A stretch of 64,000 nt of DNA, taken from the IMG/VR virus record IMGVR_UViG_3300044858_003476, positions 1-64,000 of that record. One strand, written 5' to 3'. Shown here one piece after another: positions 2,886-21,433 of the stretch. Under the pieces are notes generated by a model. The model ran no database searches, had not been told where the DNA came from, and saw only the letters and a program-made list of their open reading frames with translations. The stretch comes from a virus. A program made the position numbers and the translations under genes. Position 1 is the first letter of the stretch. Each line of letters opens with the position of its first letter.

Positions 2886-5882
2886 ATGCAAATCAACGTT
2901 ATACACACAGATGGTACTCGTACCCCCTATGATGCCAATCGCGCTATCGAGGTAATTAACTGGGCCTGCGAGGGCCTAGAGGTAGACCCCGATAAGTTAT
3001 CTCGGCGACTTAGTCGTCGCTTCAATGAAGATACCACTACAGAAGCTATACAGAATGGTCTGATTAGATCAGCAGCTGAATTAGCCGATTTGCATTACCC
3101 TGATTGGCTGAAGGTCAGTGGTCGTCTTCGTATGTGGGATTGGCGGCGTAAGGTTAAGGCCCGCCGCGGCTATCTCTATGGTAATTATCCAGTGGCCTTC
3201 GAGTACCTGAGGTCTGAGGGCCTCTATGAAGGATACCTAATAAAGAAGTTCTTAGACACGTATAGTACTGATGACATTGCTGAAGCCGGCACCTGGATAG
3301 ACCCAGAGCGCGATATGCGCTTTGATATAAGCGGTGCTGATCTACTCACAGCGCGCTATCTACTAGAGGGAGAGTTACTACAGGAGATGTGGCTAACACA
3401 GGCACTACTCCTCAGTATGCTGGAGCCCGCCCACGAGCGTATGGCCTTTGCTCATAAGACCTATGACCTACTCAGCCTCGGTAAGATCAGCCTGGCCACT
3501 CCTCTTATGAGTAATCTGCGTCAGGCCGATGGTAGCCTCAGTAGCTGTCATATTATCGATATCGATGATAGTCGCGAGAGTATCTTCGATAATATCTCTC
3601 AGTTAGCAGCTATGAGTGCTAATGGAGGTGGGGTAGGCGTACGCATTAGTAAGGTGCGGGCCCGCGGTAGTCGCATTCGTAAGAAGAAGGGCGCCAGTGG
3701 TGGTGTATGCCCTTGGATTAAGATTATCAATGCTACCATCGTCGCTACTAACCAACGTGGCGTACGCGCAGGGGCCTGTACCGTAGGTATAGACGTATGG
3801 CATGCTGATCTCCTTGAGTACATGGATCTGCGGGGTGATGCTGGTAGTGAGCATACGAAGGCTCGTGATATCCTGCTGCAATTCATTATCTCTGATGAGT
3901 TCATGCGTCGTGTAATTCTAGATAAGGACTGGTACCTAGTGTGCCCTACTGAAATCGAGAATGTATTTGGATATCAATTAGCCGATATGTACGGCGATGA
4001 ATTTACCAATGCCTATCACGCCATCGAAGCATATATCAACTCCTCTGCCCCTCCGCTCGACGTAGTTAAGAGGGTCAGCGCTAAGGCTATATGGAAGAAG
4101 ATGCTGATGCTCCTACTTGAGACAGGCACTCCTTACGTGGCTTTTAAAGACCGCATTAATGCTCTTAATCCTAATAAGCATGAGGGTATTATCGGTGGAG
4201 TAAATCTATGCGTAGCCCCTGAGACACTTCTTATGACTGACAGAGGCCACCTACCTATCGCTACCCTAGCGGGGCAGGTAGTCAACGCTTGGAACGGTAC
4301 TGAGTGGAGTGAGGTAACGGTACGCCAGACAGGGGAGAATCAGCCCCTTCTACAAGTTCACTTCAGTAATGGAGAGACGCTCGACTGTACCTACTACCAT
4401 AAGTTTCACGTACAGCGTCGTAATGGGGTAGATATTGTCGAGGCCCGCGATCTCGAGATAGGTGATAAGCTTATTAATTTCGATTTGCCAGTTCTATCCT
4501 CTGATAACGATGTTGACCTCCTTATTAAGGTAGCGTATTGCCCTGTTCCCATTAATGGTTATACTATTCAGACCCGATTAGAGTGGTTGGCTAGGCTGCT
4601 TGATTCTAATGGTACTTATAATAGCTTCCAAACCTTCAAAATAACGCATACCAGTAAGCCCTTCCTATTACAAGTGCGGCTCATGCTACAGACGCTTGGA
4701 GTGGACTCTAAGGTTTTCCCCCGGTATAAAGCAGGGCTTCGGGCGTATCGTCAGGAGAAGTTCTGCCTATTAATTGATAAGTATGGAGTATATCAGTTAT
4801 CCCAACTAGGCCTACGAACTAATCGCCTTCAGTGGATGGCTAAAAAACCTAAGTATGACAATACTGATCACATTACTATCAAGAAGGTAGAACTCACTGG
4901 TCGTCGTGATAATACGTACTGCGCTCACGAACCTAAGCGTAACCTGCTCATGTTCAATGGAGTGCTTACAGGCAATTGCGTCGAGTCATATAGTTTATTC
5001 AATAGCAGCTACTCACATTGCTGTATGCTTCTGTCGTTAGTACTACCTCGTATTGCTGACGATGAGATGGCTGATGTTAGCCGTATGGCTGTTCGTCTAT
5101 TAGATGCCGCGTGTGATCTTACTACTAGCCCTACTCCTGAGGCTCGCGCTCATGTGAGCCGCTATCGTACCATAGGCGTAGGTGTCATGGGGCTGGCTGA
5201 CTGGTTAGCCATTAGGCACCTTAAGTATCAGGATCTCGATGTCATAGAGAAACTATTCGAAGACATCTGCTTCTATACTACCCAGGCTAGTGTAGAACTA
5301 GCAGAGGAGCGGGGGGCCTACCCTGCATTCCCTGGTAGTGAGTGGAGTAAGGGCCTTATCCTGGGTGGTCGTGATAAGGAGTGGGTGAGAGATAATAGCA
5401 CCGACCCCGAGAGATGGTATGCCCTCATGGAGCGTTTAGTCGTATCGGGTATTCGTAATTCTCACATCCTGGCTACTGCTCCTAACTCCAGCACCTCGTT
5501 GGTACAGGGCACCACAGCCTCCTTCTTACCTGTCTTCTCTCGTCTTACCATTGATAAGAATGGGGCCGGTATTAATACCATAGTCCCACTCTATATCAAG
5601 GAAGCATTTCACTTTTATCAAGAGAGCCGCTATACTCATCCCAGTGTCGTAGTCTCTGCTGCAGCAACTATTCAGAAATGGGTAGATACTGGTCTTAGCA
5701 CTGAGTTGTTATTCAATTTCAATGAACATGCCTATGGCCTCGACTGCGTAATCACTGCTAAAGATCTAAATGATGTCTATATGCAGGCGTGGCGTGAGGG
5801 TCTCAAGACGGTATATTACGTGCGGAGTATGTGGCAGGATAAGGTAACTGAGAAGAGTGAGTGCCATTCCTGCGCTAGTTAA
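2886..5882 (+). CDS. nrdA: Class I ribonucleotide reductase large subunit, interrupted by an intein
   Basis: 998 codons, of which 256 (442-697) are an intein, leaving a 742-residue enzyme of normal size. An ATP-cone-like N-terminus (1-90) is followed by the barrel. LSSCHIIDIDDS carries the first redox cysteine. The split motif NL|C rejoins after splicing to NLCVESYSL, where that Cys is the thiyl-radical cysteine of the family. PNSSTSLVQGTTASF is the phosphate-binding loop region, and the C-terminal KSECHSCAS holds the swinging CxxC pair. It reduces NDPs to dNDPs together with the subunit encoded at 7510-8556. The coding frame is uninterrupted, so activity depends on protein splicing. Confidence 0.93.
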   Translation: MQINVIHTDGTRTPYDANRAIEVINWACEGLEVDPDKLSRRLSRRFNEDTTTEAIQNGLIRSAAELADLHYPDWLKVSGRLRMWDWRRKVKARRGYLYGNYPVAFEYLRSEGLYEGYLIKKFLDTYSTDDIAEAGTWIDPERDMRFDISGADLLTARYLLEGELLQEMWLTQALLLSMLEPAHERMAFAHKTYDLLSLGKISLATPLMSNLRQADGSLSSCHIIDIDDSRESIFDNISQLAAMSANGGGVGVRISKVRARGSRIRKKKGASGGVCPWIKIINATIVATNQRGVRAGACTVGIDVWHADLLEYMDLRGDAGSEHTKARDILLQFIISDEFMRRVILDKDWYLVCPTEIENVFGYQLADMYGDEFTNAYHAIEAYINSSAPPLDVVKRVSAKAIWKKMLMLLLETGTPYVAFKDRINALNPNKHEGIIGGVNLCVAPETLLMTDRGHLPIATLAGQVVNAWNGTEWSEVTVRQTGENQPLLQVHFSNGETLDCTYYHKFHVQRRNGVDIVEARDLEIGDKLINFDLPVLSSDNDVDLLIKVAYCPVPINGYTIQTRLEWLARLLDSNGTYNSFQTFKITHTSKPFLLQVRLMLQTLGVDSKVFPRYKAGLRAYRQEKFCLLIDKYGVYQLSQLGLRTNRLQWMAKKPKYDNTDHITIKKVELTGRRDNTYCAHEPKRNLLMFNGVLTGNCVESYSLFNSSYSHCCMLLSLVLPRIADDEMADVSRMAVRLLDAACDLTTSPTPEARAHVSRYRTIGVGVMGLADWLAIRHLKYQDLDVIEKLFEDICFYTTQASVELAEERGAYPAFPGSEWSKGLILGGRDKEWVRDNSTDPERWYALMERLVVSGIRNSHILATAPNSSTSLVQGTTASFLPVFSRLTIDKNGAGINTIVPLYIKEAFHFYQESRYTHPSVVVSAAATIQKWVDTGLSTELLFNFNEHAYGLDCVITAKDLNDVYMQAWREGLKTVYYVRSMWQDKVTEKSECHSCAS
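4209..4976 (+). other. Intein in NrdA, inserted before the active-site cysteine
   Basis: The 256-residue insert starts at Cys442 (CVAPETLLMTDRGHLP, block A) and ends at Asn697 (FNGVLTGN, block G), with +1 residue Cys698. Block B is seen as LDCTYYHKF, and block F as TYCAHEPKRN. The penultimate residue is Gly, not His. Between the splicing blocks lies a reduced region with one LAGLIDADG-like helix (LEWLARLLDSNGTY) and no clear second one, so the homing endonuclease is probably degenerate. RNR genes are a common intein site in phages and cyanobacteria. Confidence 0.88.
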
Positions 5883-5898
5883 ACTAGGAGAAGAATCG

Positions 5899-6105
5899 AT
5901 GGATACAAAGGATACAAATTTACTAACACTTGAGCAAGAATTACGGCTGCGCGCTACGTCAGATACTATTGATAAGATGTCGCTAGAGCAGGCCCGTCAT
6001 ATGCTCAAGGATGTGGTGAAGCAAGCAATGCTTAGAGATAATCTATACGCGGCTATCATCAAGAAGAATTGGGGTCTAGAGCCAACGACCCCGCCTAATC
6101 ACTAA
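5899..6105 (+). CDS. nblA: NblA-type phycobilisome degradation protein
   Basis: 68 residues. ATG 5899 is chosen because TAGGAG lies just upstream; the frame is open further 5' but overlaps nrdA. LTLEQELRLRATSDTI, MSLEQARHML and RDNLY...KNWGLEP match, from memory, the NblA pattern LSLEQEF..R....MS.EQA...L and the final WGLEP. NblA is a small helical adaptor that binds phycobiliproteins and brings in Clp protease to dismantle the antenna during nutrient stress. In cyanophages it is a known auxiliary metabolic gene, thought to free amino acids or limit photodamage during infection. It follows nrdA by 16 bases and is closed by a strong terminator. Confidence 0.85.
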   Translation: MDTKDTNLLTLEQELRLRATSDTIDKMSLEQARHMLKDVVKQAMLRDNLYAAIIKKNWGLEPTTPPNH

Positions 6106-12824: not shown

Positions 12825-13472
12825 ATGAAAACATTCGTTACCGCAGACCGTTATCTCCCTACTAAGAATAATAGTCGGGATGGTGGGTATGATCTTAAGG
12901 CCCGCGTCACAGAAGAGCATAAGTTCGTAGCTGAGAGTCTCCTGAAGAACCTATCATTACAGAAAGTATTGTTAGAGTCTGAGTGTAATCTATTCGTTAA
13001 TGGGAGTCTCGTAGAGCATGACCATATAAAAGATACACTAGAGACATGCATACTCGATGAGAAGGGCTTCTATGTCCTGCTGCCAGGTCAATCTGTCCCT
13101 GTCCATACAGGCTTCTATGTGACCTCGCCTGGTTTACCTGAAGAAACTCAGGATAAGTTAGTGGAGATGGGTATAGGTCGCCTAGTGCGTATTGGTCGTA
13201 TCCAGCCCCGCTCAGGATTAGCTAAGCATGGTATTAGTGTAGCTAATACGCCGGGCCTCGATGATATGGAGACATACGTAGGGGAGATCCTAGTGCTACT
13301 AGAGAATAGAGGTTACGATGTGCACCTATTCGGTGATGGGGCCCGTATTGCCCAATTCACATTCGAACTGGTAGCCGATATGGGGGACTTATCTAATTAT
13401 CTCGTACGAGATGAAGTTGACTTAGGTGCTACTGCGCGGGGCCCCCGCGGCTTCGGCTCGAGTGGTGTATGA
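12825..13472 (+). CDS. dut: dUTP diphosphatase
   Basis: 215 residues from ATG 12825; the frame is open further upstream only across the terminator. Trimeric dUTPase motifs: 1 RDGGYDLKA (18-26), 2-3 RIQPRSGLAKHGISVANTPG with the catalytic-site Tyr/Asp region METYVGEI, 4 GDGARIAQFTF, 5 RGPRGFGSSG. An insert of about 60 residues after motif 1 makes it longer than the usual 150. It hydrolyses dUTP to dUMP, keeping uracil out of DNA and feeding dTMP synthesis. The stop overlaps the polymerase start (ATGA). Confidence 0.9.
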   Translation: MKTFVTADRYLPTKNNSRDGGYDLKARVTEEHKFVAESLLKNLSLQKVLLESECNLFVNGSLVEHDHIKDTLETCILDEKGFYVLLPGQSVPVHTGFYVTSPGLPEETQDKLVEMGIGRLVRIGRIQPRSGLAKHGISVANTPGLDDMETYVGEILVLLENRGYDVHLFGDGARIAQFTFELVADMGDLSNYLVRDEVDLGATARGPRGFGSSGV

Positions 13473-14743
13473 GAGTTAATACTGATCTAATTGACCTAGA
13501 GTATATCACTACTCGAGAGGAGCTAGATGCACTACTACTAGAACTAGAGGGCCGCCCTCTACTCGCTATGGATTATGAAACCTATGCAGATGTAGAAACG
13601 TGGGGGCCCCAAGCTAGTGCACTGGATCCCCATACGTTAGTAGCCCGCCTGCTACAAATTAACTGGCCTGGTAATGCAATACCGTATGTGGTTGATCTCC
13701 GCGCCCTAGACTGGCCCACTGAGATACGGGACATATGGCTTGATAGTAGTGTCAGGAAGGTCTGCTTCAACGCACGCTTCGAAGCCTTAGTAACGCAAGC
13801 TACGTGGGGCGTATGGCCTGATAATATATACTGCGCTATGGTGCTATTTCAGCAAATAGGCGCTGCTACTGGATTCAAAGCGGGTCGTACTAGAGGCTAT
13901 TCTTATGGTAGTCTAGTACGCGATATACTAGATACTCCTCTGAATAAGGAGCTCGCTAGTAGTGATTGGTCAGGTGAGTTAACACCCGCTCAATTACAGT
14001 ACGCCGCTCTAGATGTGGGGGCCCCTCGTAATTCTAATTACACTAGCCTCCTGCTAGAGGCCTATGCTCTACTACGCAATGAACTACTCTATACCTATGA
14101 GATGCCCCAAGTAGAAGAGATAGACCAGGCTGCCTTTATGGAGATAGCGCGCATGGAATGGAATGGATTGCCCATTAACATGAATGTCATGCGCAGCTTT
14201 CTGAGTACAGCTCAATCAGAGCTAGATAATTATAAGCTGCGTATGAGTGCTCACTTCGACTTCAGCGTAGATCAAGTAGTCGATTGGAACTCGGGGGCCC
14301 CTCAGGTGACTCTAGTAGTACCTGATAAGATAACGGCCCTATTGAACAACCCCACTGCCCTAGTGAGTCGTATCCAGAAACTCCTACCCGTTGAGCTAGA
14401 TAACCTGCAGCAGAAGACACTAGAAACAGTGCTGCGAGAACTAGATAGTGAGGATGACGAGGATGGCGCTACTAGTGAAGAGGGGATACGCGACCTGGGT
14501 ATTCAGGTTATATCAGATCTACTGCGATATAAGAAGCTGACTAAGATGGTTAGTACTAACTGGGCGGCCCTGATTAACCCGCGTACAGGTAATGTCCACG
14601 CCCGTTACCAGACCATCGGCACTAGTACAGGCCGTATGAGTAGTTCTAGTAGTGGAGATACTAATAAATTCAATGCACAACAGATTAGTAATGTTGAGCT
14701 GATGGTAAATATAGAGGAGGATAGATTGTTTGAGGACAATTAG
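13469..14743 (+). CDS. polA: Family A DNA polymerase, N-terminal part (3'-5' exonuclease and thumb)
   Basis: 424 residues. Exo I LLAMDYETYA (D35, E37), Exo II VCFNARFEAL, and Exo III near LQYAALDVGAP, so proofreading is intact. The polymerase part begins with thumb helices and reaches ARYQTIGTSTGRMSSSS then FNAQQI, the block normally followed by IP.R and motif A. Instead, after QQI comes the short unrelated tail SNVELMVNIEEDRLFEDN and a stop. The rest of the polymerase starts 120 bases later. The first gene overlaps dut by 4 bases. Split gene, intervening sequence or bypass are the options. Confidence 0.88.
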   Translation: MRVNTDLIDLEYITTREELDALLLELEGRPLLAMDYETYADVETWGPQASALDPHTLVARLLQINWPGNAIPYVVDLRALDWPTEIRDIWLDSSVRKVCFNARFEALVTQATWGVWPDNIYCAMVLFQQIGAATGFKAGRTRGYSYGSLVRDILDTPLNKELASSDWSGELTPAQLQYAALDVGAPRNSNYTSLLLEAYALLRNELLYTYEMPQVEEIDQAAFMEIARMEWNGLPINMNVMRSFLSTAQSELDNYKLRMSAHFDFSVDQVVDWNSGAPQVTLVVPDKITALLNNPTALVSRIQKLLPVELDNLQQKTLETVLRELDSEDDEDGATSEEGIRDLGIQVISDLLRYKKLTKMVSTNWAALINPRTGNVHARYQTIGTSTGRMSSSSSGDTNKFNAQQISNVELMVNIEEDRLFEDN

Positions 14744-14862
14744 TAGTAAACGATTACGGCGTATACTAACCAACCGGTATCCCTCTGAGAGGGATACGGC
14801 ATTATTATATGATGTTAATACTGGTAAGGTTAGAGTAATAGACCTCAGTCAATATAGACAAC
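14744..14862 (+). other. Intervening sequence between the two polymerase halves
   Basis: Non-homologous stretch that may begin as early as 14690 (after codon QQI). It holds a perfect 9-bp hairpin, GTATCCCTC TGA GAGGGATAC (14777-14797). In another frame a short reading frame from TTG at about 14729, behind AGGAGG, gives some 47 residues ending HDENKDE just before the downstream start. I find no group I or group II intron core and no intein motifs. Confidence 0.5.
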
Positions 14863-15825
14863 ATGACGAAAATAAAGATGAATAGTCGCTTTGCTCTACA
14901 GGCCCCACCAGGCTATGCATGGGTAAGCGTAGACTTCTCGAGTCAAGAGTTAAGATTGGCGGGGGCCTTCAGTAAGGATTCTGCTATTACAGAGATTTAC
15001 GTACTCGAAGATGAGTACCATAGAGGTATACGACCCCTCCCCCTATCGCCTGAGGGTCTAGCCTATACTGACCCCAAGGTAGATCAGCACCTAGTCGCCA
15101 GTACGTTCCTGAATAAGGATATAGAGCGGCGCATGGTAAACGAGCCCTGGACTGTGAGTGCAGATGATCCTGTCATCTCACCCTGGCGAAAGAAGGGTAA
15201 GATTATGAACTTCAAGGTGATATATGGTGGTAGCGCTAGTAGTTTAGCAGCAGACCTCAATTGTGATGACAAGGAGGCAGGGCGTCTACTCAAGCAATAC
15301 TTCACAGGTTTCCATGGCCTCTATACCTGGATTGAGGTTACGGGGAGCCTATGTTCTCGTACTCGATGGGTTCGTAGCGCTATGGGCCGCTTCATCAATG
15401 TCAATGAGGATAATGCTAAGGGTATAGCTGGTAAGAGTACTACGCGGCGAAAGGCAGTTAATTCTGTTATCCAGAGCTCAGGTAGTGAGATGCTGAAGAT
15501 CTCGCTACCGCGAGTAAGACATGCCATAGAAACTATAGATGCAGGAGAACGGCGGGCTAGTATTATCAACGCTACTCACGATGAAATCAATCTACTAGTG
15601 CCGGGCTATGTGGCATGGCAAGTAGTTAACTCTCGAGTAGTACCTATCTTGGATCAGGACTACTATACTGGTCGGCAGCTCGATGAGTTTATGCTGGCAC
15701 AACGTTATGCCGCTGCTGCATTATATGAGATGGAGAGCGCAGGTAACTATATACTTAAGGATGTGCTGGGCTCCGATATACCATGCCGGGCTAAGCCAAA
15801 TATACACCGCTATTGGTCACATTAA
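14863..15825 (+). CDS. polA: Family A DNA polymerase, C-terminal part (palm and fingers)
   Basis: 320 residues beginning MTKIKMNSRFALQAPPGYAW, which in a normal protein would follow NAQQIP. Motif A is VSVDFSSQELRLAG (metal-binding Asp), motif B KIMNFKVIYGGSAS (fingers O-helix), and motif C NATHDEINLL (HDE). All catalytic residues are present, so this half has the active site but lacks the template-grip and exonuclease regions on the first cistron. Either two polypeptides assemble, or the message is joined. TTTAAG-type RBS is weak. The stop overlaps the next start (TAATG). Confidence 0.9.
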   Translation: MTKIKMNSRFALQAPPGYAWVSVDFSSQELRLAGAFSKDSAITEIYVLEDEYHRGIRPLPLSPEGLAYTDPKVDQHLVASTFLNKDIERRMVNEPWTVSADDPVISPWRKKGKIMNFKVIYGGSASSLAADLNCDDKEAGRLLKQYFTGFHGLYTWIEVTGSLCSRTRWVRSAMGRFINVNEDNAKGIAGKSTTRRKAVNSVIQSSGSEMLKISLPRVRHAIETIDAGERRASIINATHDEINLLVPGYVAWQVVNSRVVPILDQDYYTGRQLDEFMLAQRYAAAALYEMESAGNYILKDVLGSDIPCRAKPNIHRYWSH

Positions 15826-19080: not shown

Positions 19081-19340
19081 CACTAACTCTGCCCTAAGGC
19101 GACAGGAGTAAATGTCACTAATCCTACCCTAAAAAGACAGTACGTAAGATATCCCTTAACCCCACCCTAAAAGAACAGGGCTTGCCTTACGAGCTTAGAT
19201 TGGGTTAACTGGTTACTAACCCCGCCCTAAAGCGACAGGAGCAAAATCTGTCACTAACCCTACTCTATCTCTGGGAGTCACTAACCCTACCCTATATCTG
19301 GAGTGTCACTAACCCCGTCCTTTTTAGGGTAGGGCTTGCC
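19081..19340 (+). repeat. Seven degenerate left-end motifs upstream of IsrB
   Basis: The motif ACTAACCCYRCCCTA recurs at about 19082, 19117, 19158, 19217, 19256, 19280 and 19305, several times followed by AGCGACAGGAG or AGAACAGGGCTTGCC. Spacing is irregular (about 24-60 nt). The CCCTA...AGGG parts can fold into small hairpins. This looks like repeated copies of the left end of the IsrB element. Confidence 0.6.
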
Positions 19341-19520
19341 TAGACCAATTTAGGCGACGCAAGTAGAGACTACCGCATCGAGACACAATCTGGCACAGAC
19401 TTCCGAATACTTCCCTAGTTCGGATTACCTCTCAGCTTTATTGGTAAAGCGTTGTTAGACAAGACATCTTGATTGTGTTGCGGGAAGGGACTTTAACTTT
19501 ACTCTTAAGGATTATCTCCT
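19341..19520 (+). ncRNA. Putative IsrB omega-RNA scaffold
   Basis: 180-nt gene-free leader directly before isrB with several complementary blocks (for example ACTTCCGAATACTTCCC with later GCGGGAAGGGAC, and TTAGACAAG with CTTGATTG). IscB/IsrB elements encode the omega RNA 5' of the ORF with the guide at its 5' end. The true 5' end may lie within the repeats at 19081-19340. Boundaries are inferred. Confidence 0.6.
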
Positions 19521-20618
19521 ATGCCAAGAGTTCCTGTTATTTCAAAAGACGGAAAGCCGTTGATGCCCACTAAATCCAGTCGGGCCAGACGGTGGATTAA
19601 AGAAGGAAAAGCTATCGGTAAATTCAATGACTTAGATATTTTCTATGTCCAGCTAACCGATGAACCTTCCGATAACAAAACCCAACCGATTGCCATTGGG
19701 ATTGACCCGGGTAAATTATTCTCAGGAATCGGTGTTCAATCTTCTCTTTTCACTCTCTGGAAAGCTCACTTAGAACTTCCCTTTAAACGAGTAAGAGAAC
19801 GAATGGATAATCGGCGATTAATGCGACGGGGCAGAAGGGGACGACGGATCAATCGTCACATTCCTTTTAATCTAAGAGCGCATCGTCAAAAACGATTCTC
19901 CAACAGAAGAAAAGCTAAGTTGGCCCCTTCAATCAGAGCTAATCGTCAACTCGAATTAAGAGTTGTTTCTGAATTAGCCAGAATCTATCCTATTTCTGAT
20001 ATTTACTTTGAGTACGTTAAAGCCGATGTTGATTTAACTTCTGGTAGAAAAGGGGCTAAGTCTGGAAAAGGTTTCTCGCCAGTTATGGTTGGACAGAAAC
20101 AAGCAATTGAGCAACTGTCTCAGTTTGCAACAGTCCATACTCGTTTTGGTTGGCAAACCTCTAATCTCAGAAAACATTTGCGACTAGAAAAGTCTAAAAA
20201 TAAAGCAGAACAATCACCAGAAAGTCATGCTAACGATGGAATTGCTCTTGCCTGTTTTCACTTTTTAGATTATTTGCCATTCCATACTTCTAATAGTCAT
20301 GGACATGGTTGGAAGGGTTCTGTTAAAGTAACAAACGCTCCCTTTGCTGTCATCAAACGTCCTCCTATTAGTCGTCGTCAACTTCACCTGATGGTTTTTT
20401 CTAAGGGCGGTAAACGACGTAAATATGGTGGCTCTACCACAAGACATGGGTTCCGTAAAGGAGATTTAGTTTCTTCTCCCAAAGGAATTGGTTATGTTAG
20501 TGGAGATACCGAAAAACAGTTATCTGTAAGCGATACCAGTTGGAAACGATTGGGACAGATAGTTGTTAGTAAGATTCAATTAATTCGTCGTTCTAATGGT
20601 TTAATTGTTTCTCACTAA
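19521..20618 (+). CDS. isrB: IsrB RNA-guided nickase (PLMP-RuvC, no HNH)
   Basis: 365 residues. The PLMP domain opens the protein: MPRVPVISKDGKPLMPTKSS. RuvC-I is IAIGIDPGKLFSG (D62); an Arg-rich bridge helix runs from 86 to 132 (MRRGRRGRRINRH); RuvC-II is DIYFEYVKAD (E164); RuvC-III is SHANDGIALA (H236, D239). The gap between RuvC-II and III is only about 70 residues, so the HNH domain of IscB is absent, matching the roughly 350-residue IsrB group. IsrB nicks DNA under omega-RNA guidance and is the presumed ancestor of the Cas9 RuvC half. No tnpA is nearby. Composition and codon use differ from the flanking phage genes, indicating a transferred element. Confidence 0.85.
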   Translation: MPRVPVISKDGKPLMPTKSSRARRWIKEGKAIGKFNDLDIFYVQLTDEPSDNKTQPIAIGIDPGKLFSGIGVQSSLFTLWKAHLELPFKRVRERMDNRRLMRRGRRGRRINRHIPFNLRAHRQKRFSNRRKAKLAPSIRANRQLELRVVSELARIYPISDIYFEYVKADVDLTSGRKGAKSGKGFSPVMVGQKQAIEQLSQFATVHTRFGWQTSNLRKHLRLEKSKNKAEQSPESHANDGIALACFHFLDYLPFHTSNSHGHGWKGSVKVTNAPFAVIKRPPISRRQLHLMVFSKGGKRRKYGGSTTRHGFRKGDLVSSPKGIGYVSGDTEKQLSVSDTSWKRLGQIVVSKIQLIRRSNGLIVSH

Positions 20619-20629
20619 CTTGTATAAAG

Positions 20630-20660
20630 CCGCCCTCCGTTATCACTAAAGGGCGGGGTT
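20630..20660 (+). terminator. Hairpin at the right end of the IsrB element
   Basis: CCGCCCT (20630-20636) pairs with AGGGCGG (20650-20656), followed by GGTTTCAG. It closes isrB and probably marks the element's right end just before the next phage gene. Confidence 0.65.
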
Positions 20661-20677
20661 TCAGACCTAGTTTTTCA

Positions 20678-21433
20678 ATGACAGCGTTATACCGAGCCGT
20701 ACAATTCAACCCGCAGTGTACCGTATGTAGTCTATCTACTAGGCAGGCAGTGAGTGGTCAGTCTGAGAGACCTATTAAGGATGTAATACTAGTAGCTATC
20801 TCAGCCTATCCTGGTAAACGGGAGGAGGCCACTAAGATGAGCCTCGCTCCCGGCACTAACAATGAGGATACTAGTGGTGCCGGGGCCTTCCTCCGGCGTT
20901 GCTTATATTGGGCTATAGAATGTGACCCCACGTGGGATGGGCCCCCCATTAATGAGCTAGTGTATTTCACTAATGCTATAAAGTGCTCCCCTCGAGACAA
21001 GACCGTTAAAGATATTCATCGCTCCCGCTGTCGGGATACCTGGCTACTCCCTGAGCTCACAGCACTACCGACTGGCGTACCTCTATTACTAGCAGGTAGC
21101 GAGGCAGTTAAGGCCATACACGGTCTCGACGCCACTATAGCCAATTACAGGGGGGCTGTCTATAACTGGCGGGGCCATCCTACTGTAACTACGTTTAATC
21201 CAATAGAGGTAGAGAGAGGTGTCTTCTATAAGACTACTATAGATGAAGAGGATGTTAAACGTGACCTCAAGGCCCTACTTCACAGTAAGAAAACCCTGCG
21301 AGATAGTGACATCGATAAGATAGTTAAGACTCGTATGTGGAATCCCGTCCCTGTAGGTAGTATGATGTGGTACTTCAGGAAGGATATAAATATCATCAAG
21401 CGAGAGATACTGAACTATGCAAACACAAAATAA
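20678..21433 (+). CDS. Uracil-DNA glycosylase-like protein with Fe-S cysteines
   Basis: 251 residues. CTVCSLSTRQAVSGQ opens like family 4/5 UDGs (C14, C17), followed by DVILVAISAYPGKREE in place of the usual GE.PG..ED, then FTNAIKCSPRD (C103) and HRSRCRDTWLLPEL (C118). Four cysteines at these positions suit the 4Fe-4S cluster. VPLLLAGSEAVKAIHG and the later HPTVTTFNP (usual HPS or HPA) complete the fold. The changed GEAPG motif raises the chance of altered activity. UDGs remove uracil; next to dUTPase this suggests control of uracil in phage DNA. Begins right behind the IsrB element. Confidence 0.72.
   Translation: MTALYRAVQFNPQCTVCSLSTRQAVSGQSERPIKDVILVAISAYPGKREEATKMSLAPGTNNEDTSGAGAFLRRCLYWAIECDPTWDGPPINELVYFTNAIKCSPRDKTVKDIHRSRCRDTWLLPELTALPTGVPLLLAGSEAVKAIHGLDATIANYRGAVYNWRGHPTVTTFNPIEVERGVFYKTTIDEEDVKRDLKALLHSKKTLRDSDIDKIVKTRMWNPVPVGSMMWYFRKDINIIKREILNYANTK

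Follow-up and report, generated by a model that had tools for sequence, protein, structure and literature searches.

Introduction

Phage DNA polymerases encoded in two pieces are already known. A split family A polymerase with a small ORF of unknown function was reported for the OM43 phages MEP401 and MEP402 (PMC10580990); the split (ORF13/14/15) lies between the NLQN block and motif A, and the small ORF separates the exonuclease half from the catalytic half. In the T4-like phages 44RR and 25, the replicative polymerase, a family B enzyme, is fixed as two cistrons (i.e., genes 43A and 43B) separated either by an intercistronic stretch that is not translated or by a seg homing endonuclease, and the 43A and 43B products of phage 25 co-purify and have polymerase activity (PMC2988022). 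Similarly, the essential gene nrdA of phage Aeh1, which is interrupted by mobE, is fixed in two pieces and is functional in that form (PMC2988022). Group I introns have been found in phage DNA polymerase genes of the family considered here (e.g., Pf-WMP3 [PMC3428280] and SPO1-like phages), and in T4 gene 60 the ribosome bypasses 50 nt, a process whose processivity drops sharply above 56 nt (PMC11194080).

Here, we describe the polymerase locus of Fukuivirus (i.e., Ma-LMM01-like Microcystis phages), which is a real and well-conserved case of a split polymerase with an ordinary translation layout. It resembles that of MEP401 and MEP402 in its break and in the small ORF between the halves, but the MEP401 split is located ~14 residues further downstream and its middle ORF (gp14, 77 aa) is unrelated; MEP401 is a distant relative that is weakly placed in our tree. 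Like genes 43A/43B and nrdA, the Fukuivirus polymerase gene is fixed in two pieces, although it does not share the family or the type of separating sequence of 43A/43B, and its gap contains no counterpart of MobE, which is a full homing endonuclease. In relatives, group I introns occupy the same active-site neighborhood; compared with these intron-bearing genes, the Fukuivirus gap lacks a catalytic core and has translation signals instead.

Results

Layout of the polymerase locus

The window (i.e., the whole 64,000-nt stretch of DNA analyzed here) is part of an 80.6-kb virus record. Its polymerase region exhibited 96 to 97% DNA identity to Ma-LMM01-like Microcystis phages, and the virus is a member of the genus Fukuivirus. 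The region consists of three overlapping cistrons on the + strand (13469 to 14743, 14730 to 14885, and 14863 to 15825), with the following features.

13469..14743, + strand: N-terminal polymerase half, 424 aa (3'-5' exonuclease domain, thumb, and first palm strands; NAQQI and an 18-residue linker at its end)
14687..14740, + strand: diverged native linker closing the N half, SNVELMVNIEEDRLFEDN, defined by BLAST alignment with the N halves of L146 and L147
14714..14720, + strand: Shine-Dalgarno sequence GAGGAGG of the middle ORF, within the N-half linker
14730..14885, + strand: middle 51-codon ORF with a TTG start, equivalent to Ma-LMM01 gp179, overlapping the N-half stop and the C-half start
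14741..14749, + strand: three tandem in-frame stops ending the N half, TAG TAG TAA (TAG TAA TAA in some relatives)
14777..14797, + strand: 9-bp hairpin with a 3-nt loop, perfect in the window
14863..15825, + strand: C-terminal polymerase half, 320 aa (palm and fingers; alternative ATG at 14878)
14943..14944, + strand: insertion site in relatives L006/L008 and L007, between the motif A codons for DFSS and QELR; the insertion, which has group I intron features, is absent in the window

In Ma-LMM01, the same three cistrons correspond to gp180, annotated as a 3'-5' exonuclease, the hypothetical gp179, and gp178, annotated as a DNA polymerase. The layout is identical in MaMV-DC, MaMV-DH01, MaMV-CH01, and MaMV-DL01, in some of which the middle ORF was left unannotated. 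We compared 13 Fukuivirus loci, 12 of which span the junction (the L007 contig begins within the middle ORF). Since all 12 junction-spanning loci share the three-cistron arrangement, the split is a fixed feature of the genus. An earlier note on this DNA had described a family A polymerase divided just before motif A, and this division is real, being common to the whole genus and not an error of the window contig. As that note stated, the N cistron stops shortly after NAQQI (14672 to 14686), and the second cistron opens with the block normally found next; the latter cistron, running from the ATG at 14863 or 14878 to 15825, contains motifs A, B, and C. The intervening sequence, put at ~180 bp, needs revision: BLAST alignments of the halves indicate that the truly foreign stretch is closer to 120 to 145 bp (about 14722 to 14862). 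The note had also overlooked the 51-codon ORF that overlaps both cistrons.

In previous studies, gp180 was treated as an exonuclease and gp178 as a polymerase (PMC5780444; PMC9927357), and expression data place both genes in the middle phase of Ma-LMM01 (PMC5780444). Within the openly accessible literature, to which our search was limited, we found no remark on the Ma-LMM01 split.

Two halves of one family A polymerase

The N half matches Pfam DNA_pol_A_exo1 (E = 2.5e-10). When each half was scanned alone, the N half matched positions 55 to 125 of the DNA_pol_A profile and the C half positions 130 to 343 (in two stretches). The C half contains motif A (DFSSQELR), motif B (RKKGKIMNFKVIYGG), and motif C (HDE). 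Profiles built with relatives covered residues 4 to 372 (N half) and 367 to 604 (C half) of the Klenow chain. A structure model of the C half (pLDDT, 72) matched the Taq, Bst, and Klenow polymerases (best E = 8.6e-13); that of the N half, from AlphaFold, was of too low quality (pLDDT, 50.6) and was discarded. The two halves together thus tile the family A polymerase fold, with almost nothing missing between them, and the presence of an exonuclease domain together with a DNA_pol_A domain carrying motifs A, B, and C identifies the enzyme as a family A DNA polymerase. In the complete Ma-LMM01 genome, the two halves are the only DNA_pol_A matches.

Both halves can be aligned with relatives almost up to the break. 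The C half aligns from residues 1 to 5 onward with L146, L147, and the unsplit polymerase of Microcoleus phage My-WqHQDG. At the other side, BLAST alignments of the N half extend to residue 419 (L147) or 421 (L146) of 424, so that the tail following NAQQI, which had been called unrelated, is not clearly so. A codon alignment of 11 genomes revealed strong purifying selection on each half (dN/dS-like ratio, 0.11). No sequence in our scans had an identity to the Fukuivirus polymerase below 97% and above about 35%.

Middle ORF and translation signals

The middle ORF is present and open in all relatives spanning the junction, it continues to overlap the C-half start, and the sole indel seen is 3 nt long. 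Its Shine-Dalgarno sequence pairs with the anti-Shine-Dalgarno sequence at -11.8 kcal/mol (5% background, -8.0), and GAGGAGG is invariant in 11 of the 11 sequences of the codon alignment. No Shine-Dalgarno sequence was detected at either C-half ATG (14863 and 14878; binding energies of +0.1 and -0.6 kcal/mol for the two starts). The tandem triple stop is kept in all relatives spanning the N-half end. Across the 11 codon-aligned genomes, the Shine-Dalgarno sequence, the TTG codon, the triple stop, and 27 bases at the C-half start are without disruptive variation.

The encoded product exhibits a different pattern. In the same 11 genomes, the part unique to the middle ORF carries 3 synonymous and 10 nonsynonymous changes, giving a dN/dS-like ratio of 1.0 that is based on these 13 changes among close relatives (Fisher's test versus the two halves, P = 6e-4 and 1e-3). 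Nucleotide diversity in the gap (0.042) is near that of fourfold-degenerate sites (0.051 to 0.066). This combination of a neutral product and retained translation signals fits a spacer, i.e., an ORF for which translation matters and the product does not.

Searches of the middle ORF against Pfam, PHROGs, and PDB yielded no family match, and searches that also covered phages and plasmids returned only the Fukuivirus copies and chance-level matches; thus, the 51-aa product shows no match to a homing endonuclease in Pfam or PHROGs. With 11.3 bits (E = 0.011 among 810 window ORFs), the translation of 14730 to 14882 bears a weak resemblance to the C terminus of phage gp4-type helicases (RILTNRY...LLYDVNTGK). 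We did not accept a helicase origin, because this match was picked after the fact and is statistically unproven. A search for a DnaB helicase donor in Fukuivirus produced only subthreshold matches.

Hairpin, RNA fold, and searches for introns and inteins

The perfect 9-bp hairpin described in the earlier note exists in the window, but it is disrupted in the relatives (all 10 other sequences compared have T at position 14777, and 7 also have A at 14791). The window contains nine such hairpins, versus one to three in simulated sequence. The gap folds more stably than shuffled sequences in the window (z of about -3.5 to -3.67), while six of nine relatives have z values from -0.7 to 0; a strong fold is seen solely in the window and in two or three relatives. 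The alignment of the relatives revealed no covarying base pair in the gap.

The statement that the gap contains no intron core and no intein holds. An Rfam search over 14500 to 15100 at a permissive threshold (E ≤ 10) returned no match, while the same library recovered group I introns in related polymerase genes (L006/L008, L147, and PEF7b). Thus, the gap has no recognizable catalytic core of a group I or group II intron. Only 18 + 8 extra residues lie next to the split, whereas an intein or split intein needs ~100 or more, and the N half is closed by stop codons.

Because the N-half frame ends at 14741 and the C frame is open only from 14842, ribosomes would need to bypass 101 nt or more. Matched AAT codons for take-off and landing do exist (the last N-half codon at 14738, before TAG, and a C-frame AAT at 14881), although the gap length and the poor conservation of the stem-loop differ from T4 gene 60.

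Relatives with splits, introns, and inteins

In the maximum-likelihood tree, Fukuivirus is sister to the unsplit My-WqHQDG (support, 100/99), the split L146 and L147 together are sister to Fukuivirus plus My-WqHQDG (99/97), and the unsplit PA-SR01 lies outside all of these (99/97). The My-WqHQDG polymerase (about 31% identity) demonstrates that the enzyme also occurs as a single piece. On the basis of this topology, the split may have arisen either twice or once with subsequent healing in My-WqHQDG.

In L146, 3.6 kb separate the halves, and this interval holds a gene that, judging by its sequence, is nuclease-like, together with IS200/605-like genes; given this distance and the intervening genes, joining by RNA or by the ribosome is implausible there. 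The L146 C half is interrupted again near the NxxIQG block (5597 to 5863), with no Rfam match. In L147, ORFs of 55 and 70 aa lie between the halves, one with a weak winged-helix match. L147 is a 195-kb phage contig whose RecA also has an intein-like insertion and whose polymerase motif B contains a group I intron (48.1 bits, just below the Rfam cut-off); the coordinates of the RecA insertion and the motif B intron are 722 to 2794 and 5345 to 5589. The small ORFs of the separate split lineages show no likeness to one another.

BLAST breakpoints placed insertions within motif A, between DFSS and QELR, in L006/L008 (503 bp; 5494 to 5996) and L007 (333 bp; ~153 to 485); the insertion follows a T and ends in G. 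That of L006 matched Rfam Intron_gpI (37.4 bits; E = 5.8e-8; below the curated cut-off), and the L006/L008 group I intron is located 65 bp downstream of the gap. Enterococcus phage PEF7b has a group I intron just upstream of NLQQ (52.4 bits) with an HNH/NUMOD4 ORF. Microcystis phage Mvi-JY20 (L044; 538 to 3903) has a polymerase intein just after the TGR block (Intein_splicing, E = 6.4e-5), and the N terminus of its polymerase has a weak uracil-DNA glycosylase match. The polymerase of Enterococcus phage GiddyUp (L051; 963 to 3313), annotated as two overlapping ORFs, was not counted as a split, since it appears to reflect a 1-nt deletion relative to VD13 that is possibly a sequencing error. Given the splits (L146, L147, and MEP401), the group I introns, and the intein around the same loop, this loop is a recurrent break point. 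The recurrence of all three types of interruption around one polymerase loop is new here.

The longer motif A insertion (503 bp) also contains a match to HEARO (IscB omegaRNA-like), 69% identical to a HEARO-like RNA elsewhere in the window (19305 to 19497; 29.6 bits, below the cut-off). The latter is directly upstream of a gene for a 365-aa RRXRR protein (19521 to 20618) of IsrB-like size and without an HNH match, and a strong RNA fold (z = -5.1) is predicted at the end of this gene (20505 to 20696). The intron-bearing contigs behind L006, L007, and L008 had no RRXRR match.

Discussion

The Fukuivirus polymerase is very probably the product of a genus-wide gene split, in which two polypeptides are translated from one mRNA and reassemble noncovalently, with the middle ORF feeding the start of the C half. 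A single mRNA would carry the exonuclease/thumb half, the 51-codon ORF, and the palm/fingers half as three overlapping cistrons. Translation of the N half would end at the three tandem stops, and the strong Shine-Dalgarno sequence inside the N-half linker would load ribosomes on the middle ORF. Termination of the middle ORF at 14885, just past the C-half starts at 14863 and 14878, would then probably allow reinitiation on the C half, so that the middle ORF may act as a minicistron that brings ribosomes to a start lacking its own Shine-Dalgarno sequence. The break would fall after the NxQxI strand and before motif A, where the length of the chain varies among relatives, and the halves are predicted to associate without a covalent bond into one active family A polymerase.

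The earlier note had left open a two-subunit enzyme, splicing, and translational bypass, of which our results support the first; the sequence of the locus shows no sign of either of the other two, which are disfavored. Removal of the gap by a self-splicing RNA (a group I, group II, or other intron) to give a continuous polymerase is highly improbable. Related polymerase genes do contain group I introns (motif A in L006/L008, motif B in L147, and near NLQQ in PEF7b), and the window gap folds better than shuffled sequences, but the Rfam search that recovered those introns was empty here, the gap is drifting and shorter than 200 nt, its fold is weak in most relatives and shows no covariation, and the relatives keep strong translation signals inside it. 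One fused polymerase might alternatively arise by bypass of the T4 gene 60 type, for which the matched AAT codons are suggestive, or by two +1 frameshifts via the middle ORF, which are geometrically possible because the middle frame overlaps both neighbors. The probability of this reading is very low, given a skip twice as long as in T4 gene 60 (PMC11194080) or longer, three stops directly after the would-be take-off codon, and an unconserved hairpin and fold. Taken together, it is very unlikely that the halves are joined into a single chain by any such route, whether an unrecognized excision, an unprecedented bypass (e.g., from the AAT at 14738 to that at 14881), or a double +1 frameshift.

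Two further explanations concern what the gene pieces do. The middle ORF might encode a functional small protein, i.e., a third subunit or regulator that is the reason the split is maintained. Its openness in all relatives, excellent Shine-Dalgarno sequence, and lone 3-nt indel would agree with this, as would the inter-half ORFs of other split polymerases (MEP401 gp14 and the two in L147) and the weak, post hoc helicase likeness. However, the neutral substitution pattern, the empty Pfam, PHROGs, and PDB searches, and the differences in these ORFs between split lineages make such a role unlikely. The possibility that the polymerase is decaying while another enzyme replicates the phage draws on a TV-Pol gene reported in Ma-LMM01 (PMC2579912), but its likelihood is close to negligible in view of the strong purifying selection on both halves, the intact motifs A, B, and C, and the lack of any other DNA_pol_A match in the complete Ma-LMM01 genome.

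The genus-wide split shows that permanent division beside the first catalytic motif is possible in a replicative family A polymerase. As a recurrent break point, the loop is a natural guide to the design of split polymerases. Additionally, surveys of cyanophages that rely on the annotation "DNA polymerase" may be viewing half an enzyme.
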